Both the position numbers and the translations under genes were made by a program. From an uncultured Clostridia bacterium (GTDB taxonomy: Bacteria > Bacillota > Clostridia > Saccharofermentanales > Saccharofermentanaceae), in assembly GCA_946187935.1 (NCBI GenBank), contig CAMHSJ010000002.1, forward strand, positions 62,001-126,000: DNA of 64,000 nt, given 5' to 3'. Below are positions 40,141 to 48,769 of this stretch, in pieces; position 1 is the stretch's first letter, and every line of letters begins with the position of its first letter. The notes beneath the pieces were generated by a model, which saw only the letters and a list, made by a program, of their open reading frames with translations, was not told the DNA's origin and made no database searches.

Positions 40141-41220
40141 ATGACAGATTTTGAGAAAGCAATAGCTGCAGCACAGAAGCTCGCAGAGAAGAACGGAAAG
40201 ACTCTTACTGATGCGGAGCTTGAATCCATTACGGATAACTACAAGATGGGTCCTGACGATATGCTCAGTCTCAGGTCTGAGCTCGAGAAGATGAATATCT
40301 TCATCAGCGAACCTGAAGTGGATCTTGTTGTTATAGACGATGATGATGTTCCTACTGATGCCGATATCGAAGAGAGCACAGACGATGCAAGTGTCGTTGA
40401 TGACTCGGTAAAGATGTATCTCAAGGAGATCGGTAAGATCGAACTCCTCAAGGCTGAAGAAGAGCGTGAGATCGCTCAGAGAATGGCTGAAGGCGATGAG
40501 GATGCCAAGGAGACACTCATCAACTCCAACTTAAGACTCGTTGTATCGATCGCCAAGAAGTACATGAACCGCGGTCTTTCACTTCTCGATCTCATCCAGG
40601 AAGGTAACATAGGTCTTATCAAGGCCGTAGACAAGTTCGATTACACCAAGGGATTCAAGTTCTCGACATATGCCACATGGTGGATCAGACAGGCTATCAC
40701 AAGAGCCATTGCCGACCAGGCAAGAACGATAAGGATCCCCGTACACATGGTAGAGACTATAAACAAGCTCACAAGGGTTCAGAGACAGCTCGTTCAGGAT
40801 CTCGGAAGGGAACCGACTACAGAGGAACTTGCTGAAGCAATGAACATGGAGCCTGCCAAGATCAGAGAGATCCAGAAGATCTCCCAGGATCCTATCTCCA
40901 TCGATAAGCCTGTAGGTGAGGAAGAAGATTCACACCTCGTAGACTTTATCTCCAACGATGAACTCGCATCACCTGACGAAGAAGTTGCAAGAAACCTCTT
41001 AAAGGAAGATCTCATCAAGGCTCTTAATACTCTTACCGACCGTGAACGTAAGGTCATAGAGCTCAGGTTCGGGCTTAAGGACGGAGTTCCGATGACACTT
41101 GAGCAGGTAGGTAAGAAGTTAGGCGTTACGAGAGAGCGAATCAGACAGATCGAAGCCAAGGCGATAAGGAAGCTGTCCAGATCGTCCGGATCCAAGAAAC
41201 TGGAAGGTTACACCGACTAA
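40141..41220 (+). CDS. rpoD: RNA polymerase primary sigma factor
   Basis: [90 protein letters not shown]. Confidence 0.97.
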
Positions 41221-41237
41221 GACGCGGGGGATTATCT

Positions 41238-42758
41238 GTGCAGGGACGCAAGATCCATTCGTTTTACAAGGGTATTTTTTCAGGGGACGTTTTGAATTTT
41301 TCAAAACGTTCTCCTTTTGTCAGGGAGATAATGCTCGAGCGCATCAATCCCTCGAGGGTCATACTGCCCATGAAGATGCATTATGGTGTCCCTGCTGTTC
41401 CGACAGTCAAGGAAGGCGATATCGTAAAGGCAGGCCAGTGCATAGGACTTCCTGACCCGAAATCCTTTTCGAGCCCTGTACATACGGGTATCTCAGGCAG
41501 GGTAACAGCCATAAAGGAGATAACTCTTCCCAACGGCATCAAGACGCCTGCCGTTTTTATTAACAATGACATGAAGAGGACAAGGCTTGATTCACTCAAG
41601 AGCAGAGGGGATATCAAGCTTTCTGCTGTGCAGACGATAGCTCTGATTAGAGACGCGGGAATATGCGGCATGGGCGGTGAGGGTATCCCGACATATGCCA
41701 AGCTTACAAGAGCAAGAAATCATGCCGTCGATGACTTCCTTGTAAACTGCCTTCAGAGTGAGCCGTATTCGACCTGTGACCTTATGGCCATAGTAGAGTA
41801 CCCTGATTATGTGGTAAATGGCGCGTGCGCGTGTGCAAGAGCCTGTGGCGCCAAGAACGTTAAGTTCCTGATATCTGCAGGCCGCAGGACTGAGAGGGCT
41901 GCTCTTGAGAATTCCATAAGGAATGCAAAGGATTCTTATAAAGATCTTGATATCAGTATCGAATTATTCCGCGAACGTTTTCCACAGGGTTACTACAGAC
42001 TGGTCGCAAAAGCATTGTACGGCAAGCAGCTCGGGATAAACGATACCTTAGAGCAGACCTGCAGCGCGGTCATGTTTAACTGTTCCACGATGCTCTCTTG
42101 CTGGGAGGCAATATCTGACAACATCCCCATGATGAACAGGATCATATCTGTTTCAGGCAATGAGTCTGGCGGACATAACCTGCTCGTTCCGATAGGCACG
42201 CCCGTATCCGAGGTCTTATCCAGCGCTTACGATGCCAATAAGACAGAGAGCAGGATCATCTGGGGCAATTGCCTCACGGGGATAGAGATCACAGACCCGG
42301 AAGAAGTTCCCGTAATCAAGATGACATCGGTTATCTCCATAGTGCGCAAGGCTGAGATCCCGACAACGCCGTGCATCCACTGCGGGCTCTGTTCCGAGTG
42401 CTGCCCGATGGGACTGTCCCCGAATACTGTTTACGAGATGCTCGTACAGGGTCTTGTTCAGAAGGCGGCCGAAGAAGGCGCGCGTGACTGTATTTCCTGC
42501 GGAAGCTGCTCTTATGTTTGTCCTGCAGGCATTAATCTCGCAACATCCATAGCAAGATTTGCAAATCAGGGCAGGGTCATCGAGGTCAATTCGCTTCTGG
42601 ATAACGGCGGGCTTGAGTTTAGCGAGGAAGCTTCTCTTAATGCCTCCCAGGTCGGCCAGGCTTCGCTCCTTGAAGAGTTCCCTGATGAAGAGGATGAGAA
42701 GAACGAGACAGATCCTGATTCCATCATATTGCCGTTTGACGGAGGCAAGACTGTATGA
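41238..42758 (+). CDS. RnfC-like electron transport subunit (divergent)
   Basis: RVILPMKMHYGVPAVPTVKEGDIVKAGQCIG, IRDAGICGMGGEGIPTYAKL, two FeS motifs CIHCGLCSECCP and CISCGSCSYVCP; GTG start with GGGGGA RBS. Confidence 0.85.
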   Translation: MQGRKIHSFYKGIFSGDVLNFSKRSPFVREIMLERINPSRVILPMKMHYGVPAVPTVKEGDIVKAGQCIGLPDPKSFSSPVHTGISGRVTAIKEITLPNGIKTPAVFINNDMKRTRLDSLKSRGDIKLSAVQTIALIRDAGICGMGGEGIPTYAKLTRARNHAVDDFLVNCLQSEPYSTCDLMAIVEYPDYVVNGACACARACGAKNVKFLISAGRRTERAALENSIRNAKDSYKDLDISIELFRERFPQGYYRLVAKALYGKQLGINDTLEQTCSAVMFNCSTMLSCWEAISDNIPMMNRIISVSGNESGGHNLLVPIGTPVSEVLSSAYDANKTESRIIWGNCLTGIEITDPEEVPVIKMTSVISIVRKAEIPTTPCIHCGLCSECCPMGLSPNTVYEMLVQGLVQKAAEEGARDCISCGSCSYVCPAGINLATSIARFANQGRVIEVNSLLDNGGLEFSEEASLNASQVGQASLLEEFPDEEDEKNETDPDSIILPFDGGKTV

Positions 42759-43714
42759 AAGACAAGACACTTGCTCCGTTCATTCACACCTATAAGAACG
42801 CGCCTTATATCTATCTGACGTTAATAGTCGCATTACTGCCGTGCGTGTTCTATTCGGCATTTTACTATGGCATCAGAGCTATTATCCTTATTGTATTTTC
42901 GGCTGTCATGTTCTCTTTGTCTGACATCGCATTCTCGAAGACTGTTCACTCACATAACGATAACGACTATTATGACATCAGCTCCGTTGCATCAGGCATC
43001 ATATTCGCACTGATGCTCCCTCCGGACACATCTTTGATCGTCGTTCTCTCGGGAGTCTTATTCGGATCGATAGTCATCAAGCAGCTCTTCGGAGGTGCAG
43101 GAAGCAATATCTTAAATCCTGCTGCAGGCGCGAGGCTTATCGTTGAAGTGCTCTATCCGTCACATTTGACCGGTTTTGCAGAGGGCGGAAGGCAGAGATG
43201 GTTTGATCTTCTGAGCCTTATAAGATTTACTCCCACCACGGGCGAGGCAACTGATCAGACAAGGCTTTCGTTAACTGAACTCATCGTCGGAAATTACTCG
43301 GGATTCATCGGCACTGCATGTGTTCTTACGGTTCTTTTGGGAGCTGTATTTATGGTCATGAAGGGCAGCATGAGGCTTTATGCCCCGATCTCATATTTAT
43401 TGTCGCTTTGCGTCTTATACAGAGTATTCATTCCTGAAGGCGCACTTATTGAGTTCCTTCTTTCATCAGGAGCAGTATTCATCGCGGTGTTCATGTTAGG
43501 AGACCTTACCACGATGCCGTCCAGATTTGCTGCAGGAGCATTTGCCGGACTCGTCTGCGCGGCTTTAACCATAGTCTTGCTTAATAACGTAAGCCCGGTC
43601 ATCGCGCTCATCACTCCGGTCCTTGCGGTCAACTTCATGTCCTTCGTTATCGATTACTTCGCGAAAACGATATCACGCCGTAATCACCGCTCGAGGGAGG
43701 TGGATGTCTTATGA
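42755..43714 (+). CDS. RnfD-like membrane subunit (divergent)
   Basis: VASGIIFALMLPPDTSLIVVLSGVLFGSIVIKQLFGGAGSNILNPAAGAR, LIVGNYSGFIGTACVLTVLLGA. Confidence 0.82.
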   Translation: MKDKTLAPFIHTYKNAPYIYLTLIVALLPCVFYSAFYYGIRAIILIVFSAVMFSLSDIAFSKTVHSHNDNDYYDISSVASGIIFALMLPPDTSLIVVLSGVLFGSIVIKQLFGGAGSNILNPAAGARLIVEVLYPSHLTGFAEGGRQRWFDLLSLIRFTPTTGEATDQTRLSLTELIVGNYSGFIGTACVLTVLLGAVFMVMKGSMRLYAPISYLLSLCVLYRVFIPEGALIEFLLSSGAVFIAVFMLGDLTTMPSRFAAGAFAGLVCAALTIVLLNNVSPVIALITPVLAVNFMSFVIDYFAKTISRRNHRSREVDVL

Positions 43715-45060
43715 TGACGCGTGCCCAGCTGAGGCTGTTTCTACTCGAAGGTCTGGGACTCCTCCTGCTTTCCGTTCTTGTTGTCATAGGCGGATTCTTC
43801 CTCTCGTCAGGCAATCAGGCTGCAAGAAAGCAGGAAGACTACATTGCAAGATTTGCTTCTGTCTTAACAGCTGACAGATATGAACCTCTTAACACTTCGG
43901 TCCTTAAAGACTATCCGGAGATCAACGCCGTCTACATGGGCTACGATGAGGAAGGGTCACCGGTCGGTTATGTTGTTGACATAACGACAGAGCCTGACGG
44001 CAAAACACTTCACATGCTGGTCGGGATCGATTATGAGAGTGCGGCCGTTACAGGTCTCAGGTATTTAAGAGACTCAGATGAGCTTTATCCGATCTCAGAT
44101 CTTGTCATGCAGGCTATCCAGTCAAGGATAGTAGGAAACTCTATCCCCGTGGCATTTGCAGTGGAAGATCAGGCGGAGAGTGTCACAGACGAAGAGACGG
44201 AAGTCACTTCCGATCTGATCGACGGCACTTATTTTGCCCAGGAATATGTAGATGACAAGCTCGGTTACATCGATTATGTCGAGATCGAGATCGAGGGAGG
44301 CGTCATAACAAAAGTCAAGTGGGATGCATTTAATATGGATCCGACTACCGAGAACAGGAGTGCTGCCTCATTGTCAGGGGCTTACGAGGTATCGGGCCTG
44401 GACTGGGCAACGCAGTCTTACAACATCTGCCATGCGCTCCTTGAATGGCAGGATCCTGAGAAGCTTGCCATGAAATCAGACGGAACGACCGAGATAGTTG
44501 ACGGTGTAACATGCAATATCTCCGCATTCGTGGATCTTTCAAACGAATGCATAGAGAATGCCAGATACGGCTTTAACAAGACAAAATACTATAAGGCATT
44601 AGACGAGATACTTGAAGGTATCCTTGGAGCAGATGCCGAGACTCTGGGAGTATTAAACGAAGACGGCTTTGTCGTATTCTCCTTCAAGGATTACCCTGAA
44701 GTCTATACGGTATACGGAGCTGAAGACAATAACGGCGACAGAGAGATAACGGGATATCTTAATGTAAGGCAGATAGTGTCAGGTGCTGAAGGGAGCGATG
44801 AACAGACAGATCCCGAGGCCCCGACGCCTACGCCTGCCGTAAATAGCGACAATTCGCCTGACGGAAGCGAAGACGGAGTAATAAACACCGGAAGAGAATC
44901 AGACCAGATCTTGACTGACAGTATAGATGATCTTCCGATGACGGAGATAGCTACCAGGATTACTCCTGTAAACAATGCATATGACGAGACAAGACAGGTA
45001 GTGCACATATGCAATACATGCTACAAATTCTTAAAAGACTACCTTAACTGGCTGGTGTGA
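43711..45060 (+). CDS. RnfG-like / FMN_bind-domain protein (divergent, with extra C-terminal region)
   Basis: N-terminal TM; VGYVVDITTEPDGKTLHMLVGIDYESAAVTGLRYL; second module DGTYFAQEYVDDKLGYIDYVEIEIEGGVITKVKWDAFNMD...WQDPEKLAMKSDGTTEIVDGVTCNISAF like PplA-type FMN_bind repeats. Confidence 0.7.
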   Translation: MMTRAQLRLFLLEGLGLLLLSVLVVIGGFFLSSGNQAARKQEDYIARFASVLTADRYEPLNTSVLKDYPEINAVYMGYDEEGSPVGYVVDITTEPDGKTLHMLVGIDYESAAVTGLRYLRDSDELYPISDLVMQAIQSRIVGNSIPVAFAVEDQAESVTDEETEVTSDLIDGTYFAQEYVDDKLGYIDYVEIEIEGGVITKVKWDAFNMDPTTENRSAASLSGAYEVSGLDWATQSYNICHALLEWQDPEKLAMKSDGTTEIVDGVTCNISAFVDLSNECIENARYGFNKTKYYKALDEILEGILGADAETLGVLNEDGFVVFSFKDYPEVYTVYGAEDNNGDREITGYLNVRQIVSGAEGSDEQTDPEAPTPTPAVNSDNSPDGSEDGVINTGRESDQILTDSIDDLPMTEIATRITPVNNAYDETRQVVHICNTCYKFLKDYLNWLV

Positions 45061-45061
45061 T

Positions 45062-46192
45062 ATGGGACTGTTTACAGAGAAATACAATACTCCCTTCGAT
45101 AATGAAGCCGACAGAAAGAACAAGAATATCGTTCCGACTGCGCTCCATGTCAGTGCGCTGGGATATCTTTCGACCAGGAGCTCTTTATTCCTCGGTTATA
45201 CGCTTATCTCCTTAAGCCTTCTTTGCAATAATGAGGGAATATATCTGTGGTGGCCTTTTGCTGCTGCCTTGGCCGTTCTTTCTCTTTGGAGCGTAACTCT
45301 TAGGATCTTCATGCCGCGCAAACTTGCGCCTTTATCACTTCTTATCATTGAACTGATGTTCTTTGGACTTTGCGTCTTATCCTCAAGGTTCGGATTCTGC
45401 TCTGATACAGCGCCGGTTTACTTTGTTCCGATGTCGCTGGGGATCATGATGCTCGGAAGGTTCAAAGATGACGGCGAAGATGATTATAAGAGGGCAAAAC
45501 CATGGAGCGAGGTATATAGACCTTTCCTCATTGCGTCTGTGGCATCCTTATTCGGTTTCCTGGCTTCAAGTCTTTTCGAGAAGCGTTATGTCTTTGTGGC
45601 TTTGCTCAGTGCGGCCATGTTCCTTGTTGTTTACGCATATCTGAGGACTAAGCTCACAGGAAAGAGAGAGTATCTTACATCCAAGTCTCTTACTGAGATG
45701 TGGAACATTCCCGTAGCTGATATAGAAGAGTTAAGACGTTTTGTCTTTACCAGGTTTCAGTTAGGGATAACGGCTGCAGGCGCGGTCTCTGCTCTGCTTG
45801 CCGTATCTGCTTTTGCGGGAAAGTATGCAGTATATCTGATGTTCCCGTCTGTAGCATGTGTTTCAGCAGGACTCGGAGTCCTGATGATAATAACCGGCAG
45901 ATCAGGTGACAGAAAATCGATATTCGGCAGCAGGTTCTTTTTGACCGAGGCGGCGATGGCGGCAGCCTGGTTTGTTATCCCATTTGTCTCAGCTCTCCCG
46001 CAGATGCCTGAACTTACAACGATCATCAAGTGGGCGGCACTTATTATATTCGCGGATATCCTGATCACGGGTCTTCTTGCGGTAATAAGAAGAAGGCTTA
46101 TCTTCGTTCCCAAGATCAGATACGTTGAAGGACTTCCGTTCTATATGGTCCTTGTATCTCTGGTCCTCATGATAATCGAGGTCATCGGATAA
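45062..46192 (+). CDS. Polytopic membrane protein of unknown family, last gene of the Rnf-like operon
   Basis: 376 aa, many hydrophobic segments; 1 nt after the rnfG-like stop; no RnfA/RnfE signature recognised. Confidence 0.7.
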   Translation: MGLFTEKYNTPFDNEADRKNKNIVPTALHVSALGYLSTRSSLFLGYTLISLSLLCNNEGIYLWWPFAAALAVLSLWSVTLRIFMPRKLAPLSLLIIELMFFGLCVLSSRFGFCSDTAPVYFVPMSLGIMMLGRFKDDGEDDYKRAKPWSEVYRPFLIASVASLFGFLASSLFEKRYVFVALLSAAMFLVVYAYLRTKLTGKREYLTSKSLTEMWNIPVADIEELRRFVFTRFQLGITAAGAVSALLAVSAFAGKYAVYLMFPSVACVSAGLGVLMIITGRSGDRKSIFGSRFFLTEAAMAAAWFVIPFVSALPQMPELTTIIKWAALIIFADILITGLLAVIRRRLIFVPKIRYVEGLPFYMVLVSLVLMIIEVIG

Positions 46193-47268
46193 TGAACATA
46201 TCATGCGCTTCATATGAGGATCTTAAGGAGATACTGGATCTTCAGTATGTTGCATACCAGTCGGAAGCAGATCTATTCGGCACCAGGGATATCCCGCCTC
46301 TGAAGCAGACACTGGAAGACGTTCAGGAAGAATTTAGATCCAGAACGATACTTAAGATGACTGATGACAGCAACACTATCGTCGGTTCTGTAAGGGCAAT
46401 AGAAAAAGACGGCACGGTCTTCATAGGCAAACTCATGGTCCATCCGCGGTATCAGGGCAGGGGCTATGGATCAAAGCTCTTAAAGAGCATAGAAGAGCGT
46501 TTTCCGGGCAGAAGATATGAGCTTTTTACGAGTACAAGGAGCATAGATAATATAAGGCTCTACAATAAGCACGGTTATAAAGAGTTTGACCGCAAAGAGA
46601 TCACTGATGAACTTATCTTCGTTTACATGGAAAAGCTTCCCGGGAATAACCCGTGGGAAGACATCAGCCTTGATGATTATGAAAGCCACATGAGCCTTGA
46701 GTCCGTAAACCAGCTTCAGACCTTAAACTCGATCATGAAAGAGCAGTTTGGTCTGTTTCCCGCAGGTGATGTGATGATTCTTGGTGTTGCAGGAGGGAAC
46801 GGTCTTGAGCATGTTGATACAGGAAAATATAAGACTGTCTATGGCGTGGACATCAATGAGAGATACTTAGTGGAAACCCAAAAGCGTCATCCGGAATTAA
46901 AAGGAATTCTTAAATGTATCCATATGGATATCATCAAAGACGCGGATAAGCTTCCACGATCCGGGTTCGTTATTGCCGATCTTCTGATAGAGTACATAGG
47001 CTTAGATGCTTTTGTTAATGCATTAAGCATTGTTGAGCCTTCTTATGTTTCAATAGTTATCCAGATCAATATGGATGATAAGGACTGGGTCTCAGATTCG
47101 CCGTATCTTCATTCTTTTGACAGGCTTGATGAAGTCCACCATCAGATGGAATCGTCAGTGATTGAATCAGTGATGAGCAAAGCAGGTTACCTTCTTCTAT
47201 CTCAGAATGAATACCCGCTTCCTAACGGAAAGGCTCTGTTGCGCATGGATCTTCGCCTGAACACATAA
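46192..47268 (+). CDS. GNAT N-acetyltransferase fused to class I SAM-dependent methyltransferase-like domain
   Basis: GKLMVHPRYQGRGYGSKLLKSIE (GNAT), then VMILGVAGGNGLEHVDTGKYKTVYGVDINERYL (SAM-binding-like). Confidence 0.82.
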   Translation: MNISCASYEDLKEILDLQYVAYQSEADLFGTRDIPPLKQTLEDVQEEFRSRTILKMTDDSNTIVGSVRAIEKDGTVFIGKLMVHPRYQGRGYGSKLLKSIEERFPGRRYELFTSTRSIDNIRLYNKHGYKEFDRKEITDELIFVYMEKLPGNNPWEDISLDDYESHMSLESVNQLQTLNSIMKEQFGLFPAGDVMILGVAGGNGLEHVDTGKYKTVYGVDINERYLVETQKRHPELKGILKCIHMDIIKDADKLPRSGFVIADLLIEYIGLDAFVNALSIVEPSYVSIVIQINMDDKDWVSDSPYLHSFDRLDEVHHQMESSVIESVMSKAGYLLLSQNEYPLPNGKALLRMDLRLNT

Positions 47269-47344: not shown

Positions 47345-48769
47345 ATGCTAAAAAATTTTGAAGAAGCGAAGTTGTTCATCGAAGAGAATGACATCAAGAT
47401 GATCGACTTCAGGATGATCGACCTGAACGGAAGATGGCATCATCTCACGATCCCTGCCGAGAGGCTTACAGAGCATACCATGACATCAGGCATAGGTTTT
47501 GACGGAAGCAATTACGGTTTTGCTCCCGTTGAGAAGAGCGATATGGTATTCATTCCCGATCTTTCCAGTGCTGCGATAGACGATTTCTGTGAGATCAAGA
47601 CTCTCTCCATGATAGGTGACGTAAGGATCATAGGTGATAAGGAGAATATCCCATTTAACCAGGAACCAAGAAATGTCAGCAAGCGTGCAGAAGAATATAT
47701 GAAGGAAACAGGTATTGCAGATACTTTCCTCTTAGGACCTGAATTCGAGTTCTATGTTTTCGACGAGGTGTCTTTTGCCAATAAACCCAACGGCTGCGGT
47801 TTCTCTGTTGACGGTGAGGAAGCTTTCTGGAACAACGGAGAGATCGGAGGTATGGGTTTTCAAACTCCTCATCAGGGCGGCTACCACATTGCGCCCCCAC
47901 AGGATATCGCTTATGACTTGAGGAGCAGGATATCAATGCTCATGGAAAACCAGGGGATCAAGGTCAAGTACCACCACCATGAAGTAGGTTCTGCCCAGAT
48001 GGAGATAGAGGTTGAGTTTGCGCCTATGACCGAGATGGCTGACAAGACCATGCTCACCAAGTACATCATTAAGAATGAGGCAGTCATGGAGGGTAAGACC
48101 GCAACGTTCATGCCCAAGCCTATATATGGCGAAGCAGGTTCGGGAATGCACGTTCATATGCTGATGTTCAAGGACGGTAAGCCTGTATTCTACGATGAGA
48201 ACGGGTATTCCGGACTTTCACAGACGGCTCTTTATTTTATCGGCGGAATACTAAGACACGTTCCTGCGATCTGCGCGTTCTCAAATCCTTCAACGAACTC
48301 ATATAAGAGGCTTATTCCCGGATTCGAGGCTCCCGTTACGATCGGTTATGCAACAGCAAACAGAAGCGCAGTAATCCGTATCCCCGCATATGCCAAGACT
48401 CCTGATAAGAAGAGATTCGAACTCAGGAATCCTGATGCAACATGTAATCCTTATTATTGCTATGCCGCTATCCTCATGGCAGGACTTGACGGCGTCAAGA
48501 ACAAGATCGATCCCGAGAAGGAAGGCTATGGCCCTTATGACTTCAATCTCTATAATCTTTCCGATGAGGAGAAAAAGAAGATCAAGGGCCTTCCCAAGTC
48601 ATTGGGTTCTGCACTTAAGGCTCTTGAGAAAGATCATGACTTCTTAACCGCAGGCGGAGTATTCCCCATTGAACTCATTAATCTTTGGATAGCAAACAGA
48701 AGAAAGGATCTAGCCAAGCACGTCTCTATGCCTACACCGATGGAATATGAGATGTATTACGATCTTTAA
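47345..48769 (+). CDS. glnA: Glutamine synthetase type I
   Basis: DGSNYGFAPVEKSDM, GPEFEFYVFD, HHHEVGSAQMEIE, GSGMHVHM, NPSTNSYKRLIPGFEAPV. Confidence 0.96.
   Translation: MLKNFEEAKLFIEENDIKMIDFRMIDLNGRWHHLTIPAERLTEHTMTSGIGFDGSNYGFAPVEKSDMVFIPDLSSAAIDDFCEIKTLSMIGDVRIIGDKENIPFNQEPRNVSKRAEEYMKETGIADTFLLGPEFEFYVFDEVSFANKPNGCGFSVDGEEAFWNNGEIGGMGFQTPHQGGYHIAPPQDIAYDLRSRISMLMENQGIKVKYHHHEVGSAQMEIEVEFAPMTEMADKTMLTKYIIKNEAVMEGKTATFMPKPIYGEAGSGMHVHMLMFKDGKPVFYDENGYSGLSQTALYFIGGILRHVPAICAFSNPSTNSYKRLIPGFEAPVTIGYATANRSAVIRIPAYAKTPDKKRFELRNPDATCNPYYCYAAILMAGLDGVKNKIDPEKEGYGPYDFNLYNLSDEEKKKIKGLPKSLGSALKALEKDHDFLTAGGVFPIELINLWIANRRKDLAKHVSMPTPMEYEMYYDL

Follow-up and report, generated by a model that had tools for sequence, protein, structure and literature searches.

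A sigA-linked rnf paralogue without RnfB and with a probable RnfE-RnfA fusion in Saccharofermentanaceae

In Rnf complexes, electrons travel from ferredoxin through RnfB, the RnfA/E cluster, the FMN of RnfG, the FMN of RnfD and riboflavin to RnfC and NAD+ (PMC9588780, PMC11889175). What, then, is encoded by an rnf-like operon that has no rnfB? The question is raised by a window of 64,000 nucleotides from an uncultured Clostridia bacterium of the family Saccharofermentanaceae (GenBank assembly GCA_946187935.1, contig CAMHSJ010000002.1, positions 62,001 to 126,000 of the forward strand), in which four genes lie close together on the forward strand. A homologue of rnfC with a GTG start (C, 41238..42758, 506 aa) is followed at a 4-nt overlap by a homologue of rnfD (D, 42755..43714, 319 aa), at a further 4-nt overlap by an rnfG-like gene (G, 43711..45060, 449 aa) and, after a 1-nt gap, by a gene designated X (45062..46192, 376 aa). 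The open reading frames match exactly the four tightly coupled genes and the spacing described in a first-pass annotation, and the GNAT gene (46192-47268, overlapping X by 1 nt) and glnA (47345-48769) that it placed downstream are also found. That annotation is silent on sigA/rpoD (40141..41220, forward strand; RpoD C-terminal model above cut-off), the first gene of a conserved sigA-C-D-G-X cluster, behind whose end C starts at a distance of 17 nt.

This arrangement is not a matter of chance, as its order is conserved in the genus, in 74 of 78 named loci and in other genera. Two of the four exceptional loci are cut by contig ends, and the other two have a diverged X at the same place. Conservation in relatives, which the first-pass annotation proposed as a check, is thus borne out: the block has the same order across the window genus, sigA ahead of it is conserved too, and all five genera of the family have sigA-C-D-G-X with an enlarged G. 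A search with X recovers it from 35 of 35 window-genus genomes and from none of 24 genomes from sister families of the order, and the 4-nt overlaps are mostly preserved in the loci fetched from the window genus. Among the relatives examined, none was found to have the GNAT gene or glnA next to the block. The carriers of the block are gut and rumen bacteria. We note that the C-terminal half of the GNAT protein (46192-47268) resembles a SAM methyltransferase, with the motif MILGVAGGNGLEHV.

C is readily recognized as an RnfC homologue, scoring 273.6 bits against NCBIfam rnfC (cut-off 246) and matching the RnfC chain 7zc6_C with an E value of 9.5e-54. It has a NuoF-type FMN domain and two [4Fe-4S] motifs (C379, C382, C385, C389 and C418, C421, C424, C428; 42372..42521, forward strand), and the eight cluster cysteines are intact in 53 of 53 copies from the sigA-linked block of the family. 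The FMN-binding glycine motif is mostly retained in the family copies. Two acidic residues of the pocket differ: the first Glu of ECEP is changed to Gln almost throughout these copies, and the Glu of PQGxE is replaced by Tyr in the window genus and by Gln in genus g236. D passes Pfam PF03116 with 162.5 against a cut-off of 27.7 and falls below the NCBIfam rnfD cut-off; its 319 residues match PF03116 only, with no fused PF00175 NAD-binding domain. In RnfD of A. woodii an Asn and an Asp contact riboflavin (PMC11889175), and the corresponding residues of D are N121, present in 50 of 54 copies, and D250, present in 51 of 54, as mapped onto A. woodii N123 and D249 by our own alignment. The threonine that carries covalent FMN in RnfD is found in 20 of 21 canonical copies and is lost in the sigA-linked D. 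The sequence TTGEATD was considered as a retained flavinylation motif in the window D and was dropped, as its position is not conserved in relatives.

G has a membrane helix, an RnfG-type domain, a second FMN-bind-like domain of the PplA type and a C-terminal helix. At the sequence level there are weak family matches only (PplA and RnfG); HMM comparisons match 2kzx and 9eri_G, and a Foldseek search with the predicted model returns 2kzx, 3o6u and 7zc6_G, which are RnfG and FMN-bind-type structures. The second domain (approximately residues 165-305; 44203..44625, forward strand) matches 2kzx with an E value of 1.1e-19 over residues 170-286 and sits inserted within the RnfG-type protein. No full-length G was found outside the window genus among 391 sampled genomes in a class-wide search with a G profile, nor in 24 sister-family genomes of the order. 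The covalent-FMN threonine of RnfG, present in 18 of 18 canonical copies, is lost in G, as is the FMN loop ETxGxG. Aligned by eye, the flavinylation motif DSIxGAT of RnfG would correspond to DSIDDLP (44917..44937, forward strand), in which the threonine is replaced; the automatic alignment puts the lost threonine slightly downstream of this site. The second domain has an altered flavinylation motif, EIVDGVT in the window, of which Thr267 is invariant across the window genus (GVT); two sister genera instead have E, D, V, K or R at this position. Since both of these genera have ApbE, a covalent flavin on the second domain is unlikely. The PplA-type flavinylated proteins of Gram-positive extracellular electron transfer and the FMN-bind structures 2KZX and 3O6U are homologous to this domain, but the PplA-type motif is GAT, whereas G reads GVT, GVE, GVD or GV followed by V, K or R, and does so inside an RnfG-type protein. 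With its motifs degenerate and ApbE rare in the genus, G does not qualify as an ApbE-flavinylated outer FMN-bind domain of the PplA type.

A less direct relationship is seen with X, which the first-pass annotation took to be an unknown, new membrane partner. Its assignment to RnfA or RnfE by HMM, also raised there, is not given by the family models, as X has no Pfam or NCBIfam match above cut-off and divergent copies match nothing in Pfam even at an E value of 10, and is obtained only along a chain of profiles. The window-genus X alone falls short of the RnfE and RnfA profiles, and the link is therefore routed via outgroup genera: in profile-profile comparisons the window-genus X matches the outgroup X (94.6%, E 6.5e-8), and the outgroup X matches concatenated canonical RnfE and RnfA (96.5%, E 7.6e-10), with controls of at most 1.2% for reversed profiles and at most 0.8% for RnfD. 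The X of genus g235 aligns with the RnfE and then the RnfA half, in order. Single outgroup X sequences match a local RnfE model with E values down to 5e-8 (best shuffled control 0.025), the RnfA half being weak on single sequences. Given this chain and its clean reversed controls, X is most likely a fused, degenerate RnfE-RnfA and not a new protein, with residues 1-205 or so RnfE-like and residues 206-376 RnfA-like. Canonical copies have conserved [2Fe-2S] cysteines (18 of 20 RnfE and 20 of 22 RnfA), and X has no conserved counterparts of any of the four. That X is instead an unrelated membrane protein standing in place of RnfA/E is improbable; this would fit the lack of family matches and the Foldseek search of the PDB with the AlphaFold model of the window X (pLDDT 84, about 11 helices), which returns no match, and no Rnf or Nqr chain, and counts against a preserved fold. 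It would leave unexplained, apart from the profile chain, a length of about twice that of RnfA, an operon place and E-A order shared with rnf, and outgroup copies in which the first half contains REAFGAGTIAG, like the canonical REILGNGT of RnfE, and the C-terminus is RnfA-like.

Could the missing parts be supplied from elsewhere, or is the block what remains of a lost pump? The window's assembly is about 91% complete, which leaves room for a full Rnf function using RnfB, RnfA/E and covalent flavins from genes missing in the draft genome, but a survey of 85 genomes from the window genus, including that of the window itself, recovers no RnfA/RnfE (PF02508), no RnfB above the rnfB cut-off (the sub-threshold matches listed cover the general ferredoxin half of the model) and the flavin transferase ApbE in three, and the covalent-FMN sites themselves are gone. 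Such a function is hardly credible, and the idea that RnfA, RnfE and RnfB lie elsewhere in the genome is rejected by the same genus-wide searches. The three genomes with ApbE (G488, G214 and G516) are all without recognizable RnfA/E. The description of a reduced operon without RnfB thus holds for block and genus alike; the reported absence of RnfA and RnfE holds for recognizable copies, in genome and genus, but not for X as a degenerate fusion of the two. Decay is contradicted by the history of the block. Four sister genera have canonical Rnf genes, E, A and B included, and ApbE besides the sigA-linked block, and trees of RnfC and of RnfD unite every sigA-linked copy in a single clade (100/100), with the canonical copies of the family in a separate, fully supported clade. 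From this coexistence and separation the block is an ancient rnf paralogue and not a local remnant, so that the suggestion of a repurposed remnant of a lost Rnf has to be abandoned; most simply, the canonical pump was lost later in the window genus. A decaying remnant without function would account for the many lost cofactor sites and for the fast evolution of X and D, but the reading frames are intact, the order is conserved across five genera, and the block is retained in the window genus despite the loss of canonical Rnf. Moreover, dN/dS is about 0.03-0.15 across the four genes, with synonymous sites near saturation for some pairs, which indicates that they are maintained by purifying selection. 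We consider a remnant or pseudogene very improbable on the basis of this family-wide conservation, the dN/dS values and the coexistence with canonical Rnf.

The reading that we prefer, with a rough probability of 0.6, is that the block encodes a complex from an ancient rnf duplicate (rnfCDGEA) in which rnfB was lost, rnfE and rnfA were fused and a domain was gained in RnfG, and which works by a redox-gated mechanism; the identity of the block and its loss of cofactors are, on the sequence evidence, highly probable. The carriers of the outer half appear to be gone (the clusters of RnfB, the [2Fe-2S] cluster of RnfA/E and the FMN bound covalently by RnfG and by RnfD), and the inner half appears largely kept (the RnfC FMN site, two [4Fe-4S] clusters and the RnfD riboflavin site). 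G or D may still bind a flavin non-covalently. With the outer-half carriers lost, the coupling of ferredoxin and NAD+ via the U-shaped path should fail, and a role as a ferredoxin:NAD+ pump is very unlikely. The first-pass proposal of a distinct machine is supported in that the complex must operate otherwise than Rnf; the central finding, which that annotation could not have made, is the patterned loss of carriers and of ApbE. Strong conservation in spite of the lost inputs and carriers suggests that the complex now serves a different job, likeliest as a redox-gated ion conduit or sensor, or as an electron exporter. In the conduit, RnfC would exchange electrons with the riboflavin buried in RnfD on one side and with a cytosolic donor on the other; given the altered NADH/FMN pocket of RnfC, this donor is probably NAD(P)H or something akin to it. 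The resulting redox state would open or close an ion path through RnfD and X, and G would form an outer cap or ligand-binding domain, making the complex a redox-gated conduit or sensor and not a two-substrate pump. Gating of an ion path by the RnfC-riboflavin state is a mechanism that we hold tentatively, and its particular form as a redox-sensing channel, with no transmembrane electron transfer and with the ion path running via RnfD and the cluster-less RnfE-A, is possible but doubtful. The main rival of the redox-gated conduit is a one-way electron exporter, in which electrons would pass from NAD(P)H to RnfC, to the RnfD riboflavin and on to a non-covalent flavin or other acceptor bound by the pair of FMN-bind-like domains in G, X serving as a scaffold. 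This would give a use to the kept RnfC clusters and riboflavin residues, to the second FMN-bind-like domain gained by G and to the invariant Thr267 of the window genus, and published Nqr/Rnf-like systems are likewise without the RnfD covalent site (PMC11334425). We regard it as unlikely, however, since two sister genera equipped with ApbE have E, D, V, K or R at the position of that threonine, ApbE is absent from most of the window genus, and the RnfG loop ETxGxG is lost.

Comparisons with known systems show the block to be distinct from each of them, and our literature searches turned up no account of a system of this kind in these bacteria. Relative to Rnf (RnfCDGEAB; C. tetanomorphum 7ZC6, A. 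woodii 9ERI), C, D and G are homologous and in the same order, X probably derives from E and A, and the RnfC clusters and RnfD riboflavin residues are shared. The block differs in having no RnfB, an E-A fusion without the [2Fe-2S] cysteines and an extra domain in G, in the loss of the covalent-FMN sites of D and G, and in ApbE being mostly absent from the genus. Na+-NQR originated when an rnf operon was duplicated and rnfB was lost (PMC4014512), and the block too is a duplicated rnf operon without rnfB. However, Na+-NQR recruited NqrF, keeps its membrane carriers and lost the cofactors of NqrA, which has no FeS clusters, whereas in the block the membrane carriers are lost and C has RnfC-type clusters; there is no NqrF gene in the window block. 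The two-subunit Nqr/Rnf-like systems (PMC8238504, PMC11334425) resemble the block in an RnfD-like protein without the covalent-FMN threonine, a non-covalent flavin site and an RnfG-like outer subunit, but in those systems an NqrF-type NAD domain is fused on, the outer subunit is flavinylated, and RnfC and A/E are absent, whereas the block has RnfC and an E-A fusion and a degenerate outer motif. It is these two-subunit systems, or the PplA extracellular systems, that the exporter would resemble in function.

If the redox-gated conduit is the correct reading, a redox-sensing channel has been built from an electron-driven pump and is encoded with a housekeeping sigma factor. The Na+ route in Rnf is disputed, and has been placed through RnfD from the C. 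tetanomorphum structure (PMC9588780) and through RnfA/E around the [2Fe-2S] cluster from the A. woodii structure (PMC11889175). With the cluster and the outer flavin sites removed, and RnfC, RnfD and the fused A/E under purifying selection, the block offers a natural experiment for telling ion-conducting parts from those that only carry electrons. Like NQR before it, it shows a new machine arising by duplication of an rnf operon and loss of rnfB, and is the second such case; which cofactors were lost and which kept is reversed between the two. Genes of this kind would be labelled 'Rnf complex' by automatic annotation, and ferredoxin-driven ion pumping might then be attributed in error to these rumen bacteria.

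Among other loci of the order, we note that a sister family has an NQR-type operon (L206, 4968-8973) whose NqrD passes its cut-off and whose NqrF-like gene falls narrowly short; NQR-type operons in further sister families (L214, L221) are judged by similar layout only. An independent reduction is seen in genus g10 of a sister family (L104, 2268-6893, and L222; genomes G046 and G058), where RnfE and RnfA are separate but lack the cysteines, rnfB is not beside them, and D and G retain their FMN threonine sites, with ApbE still encoded in the genome. These copies are placed inside the canonical clade in the trees. The RnfG of L104 (4577-5660) has a linker with about eight repeats of DGQSGATPEETTAAST, in which each DGQSGAT resembles the ApbE flavinylation motif.
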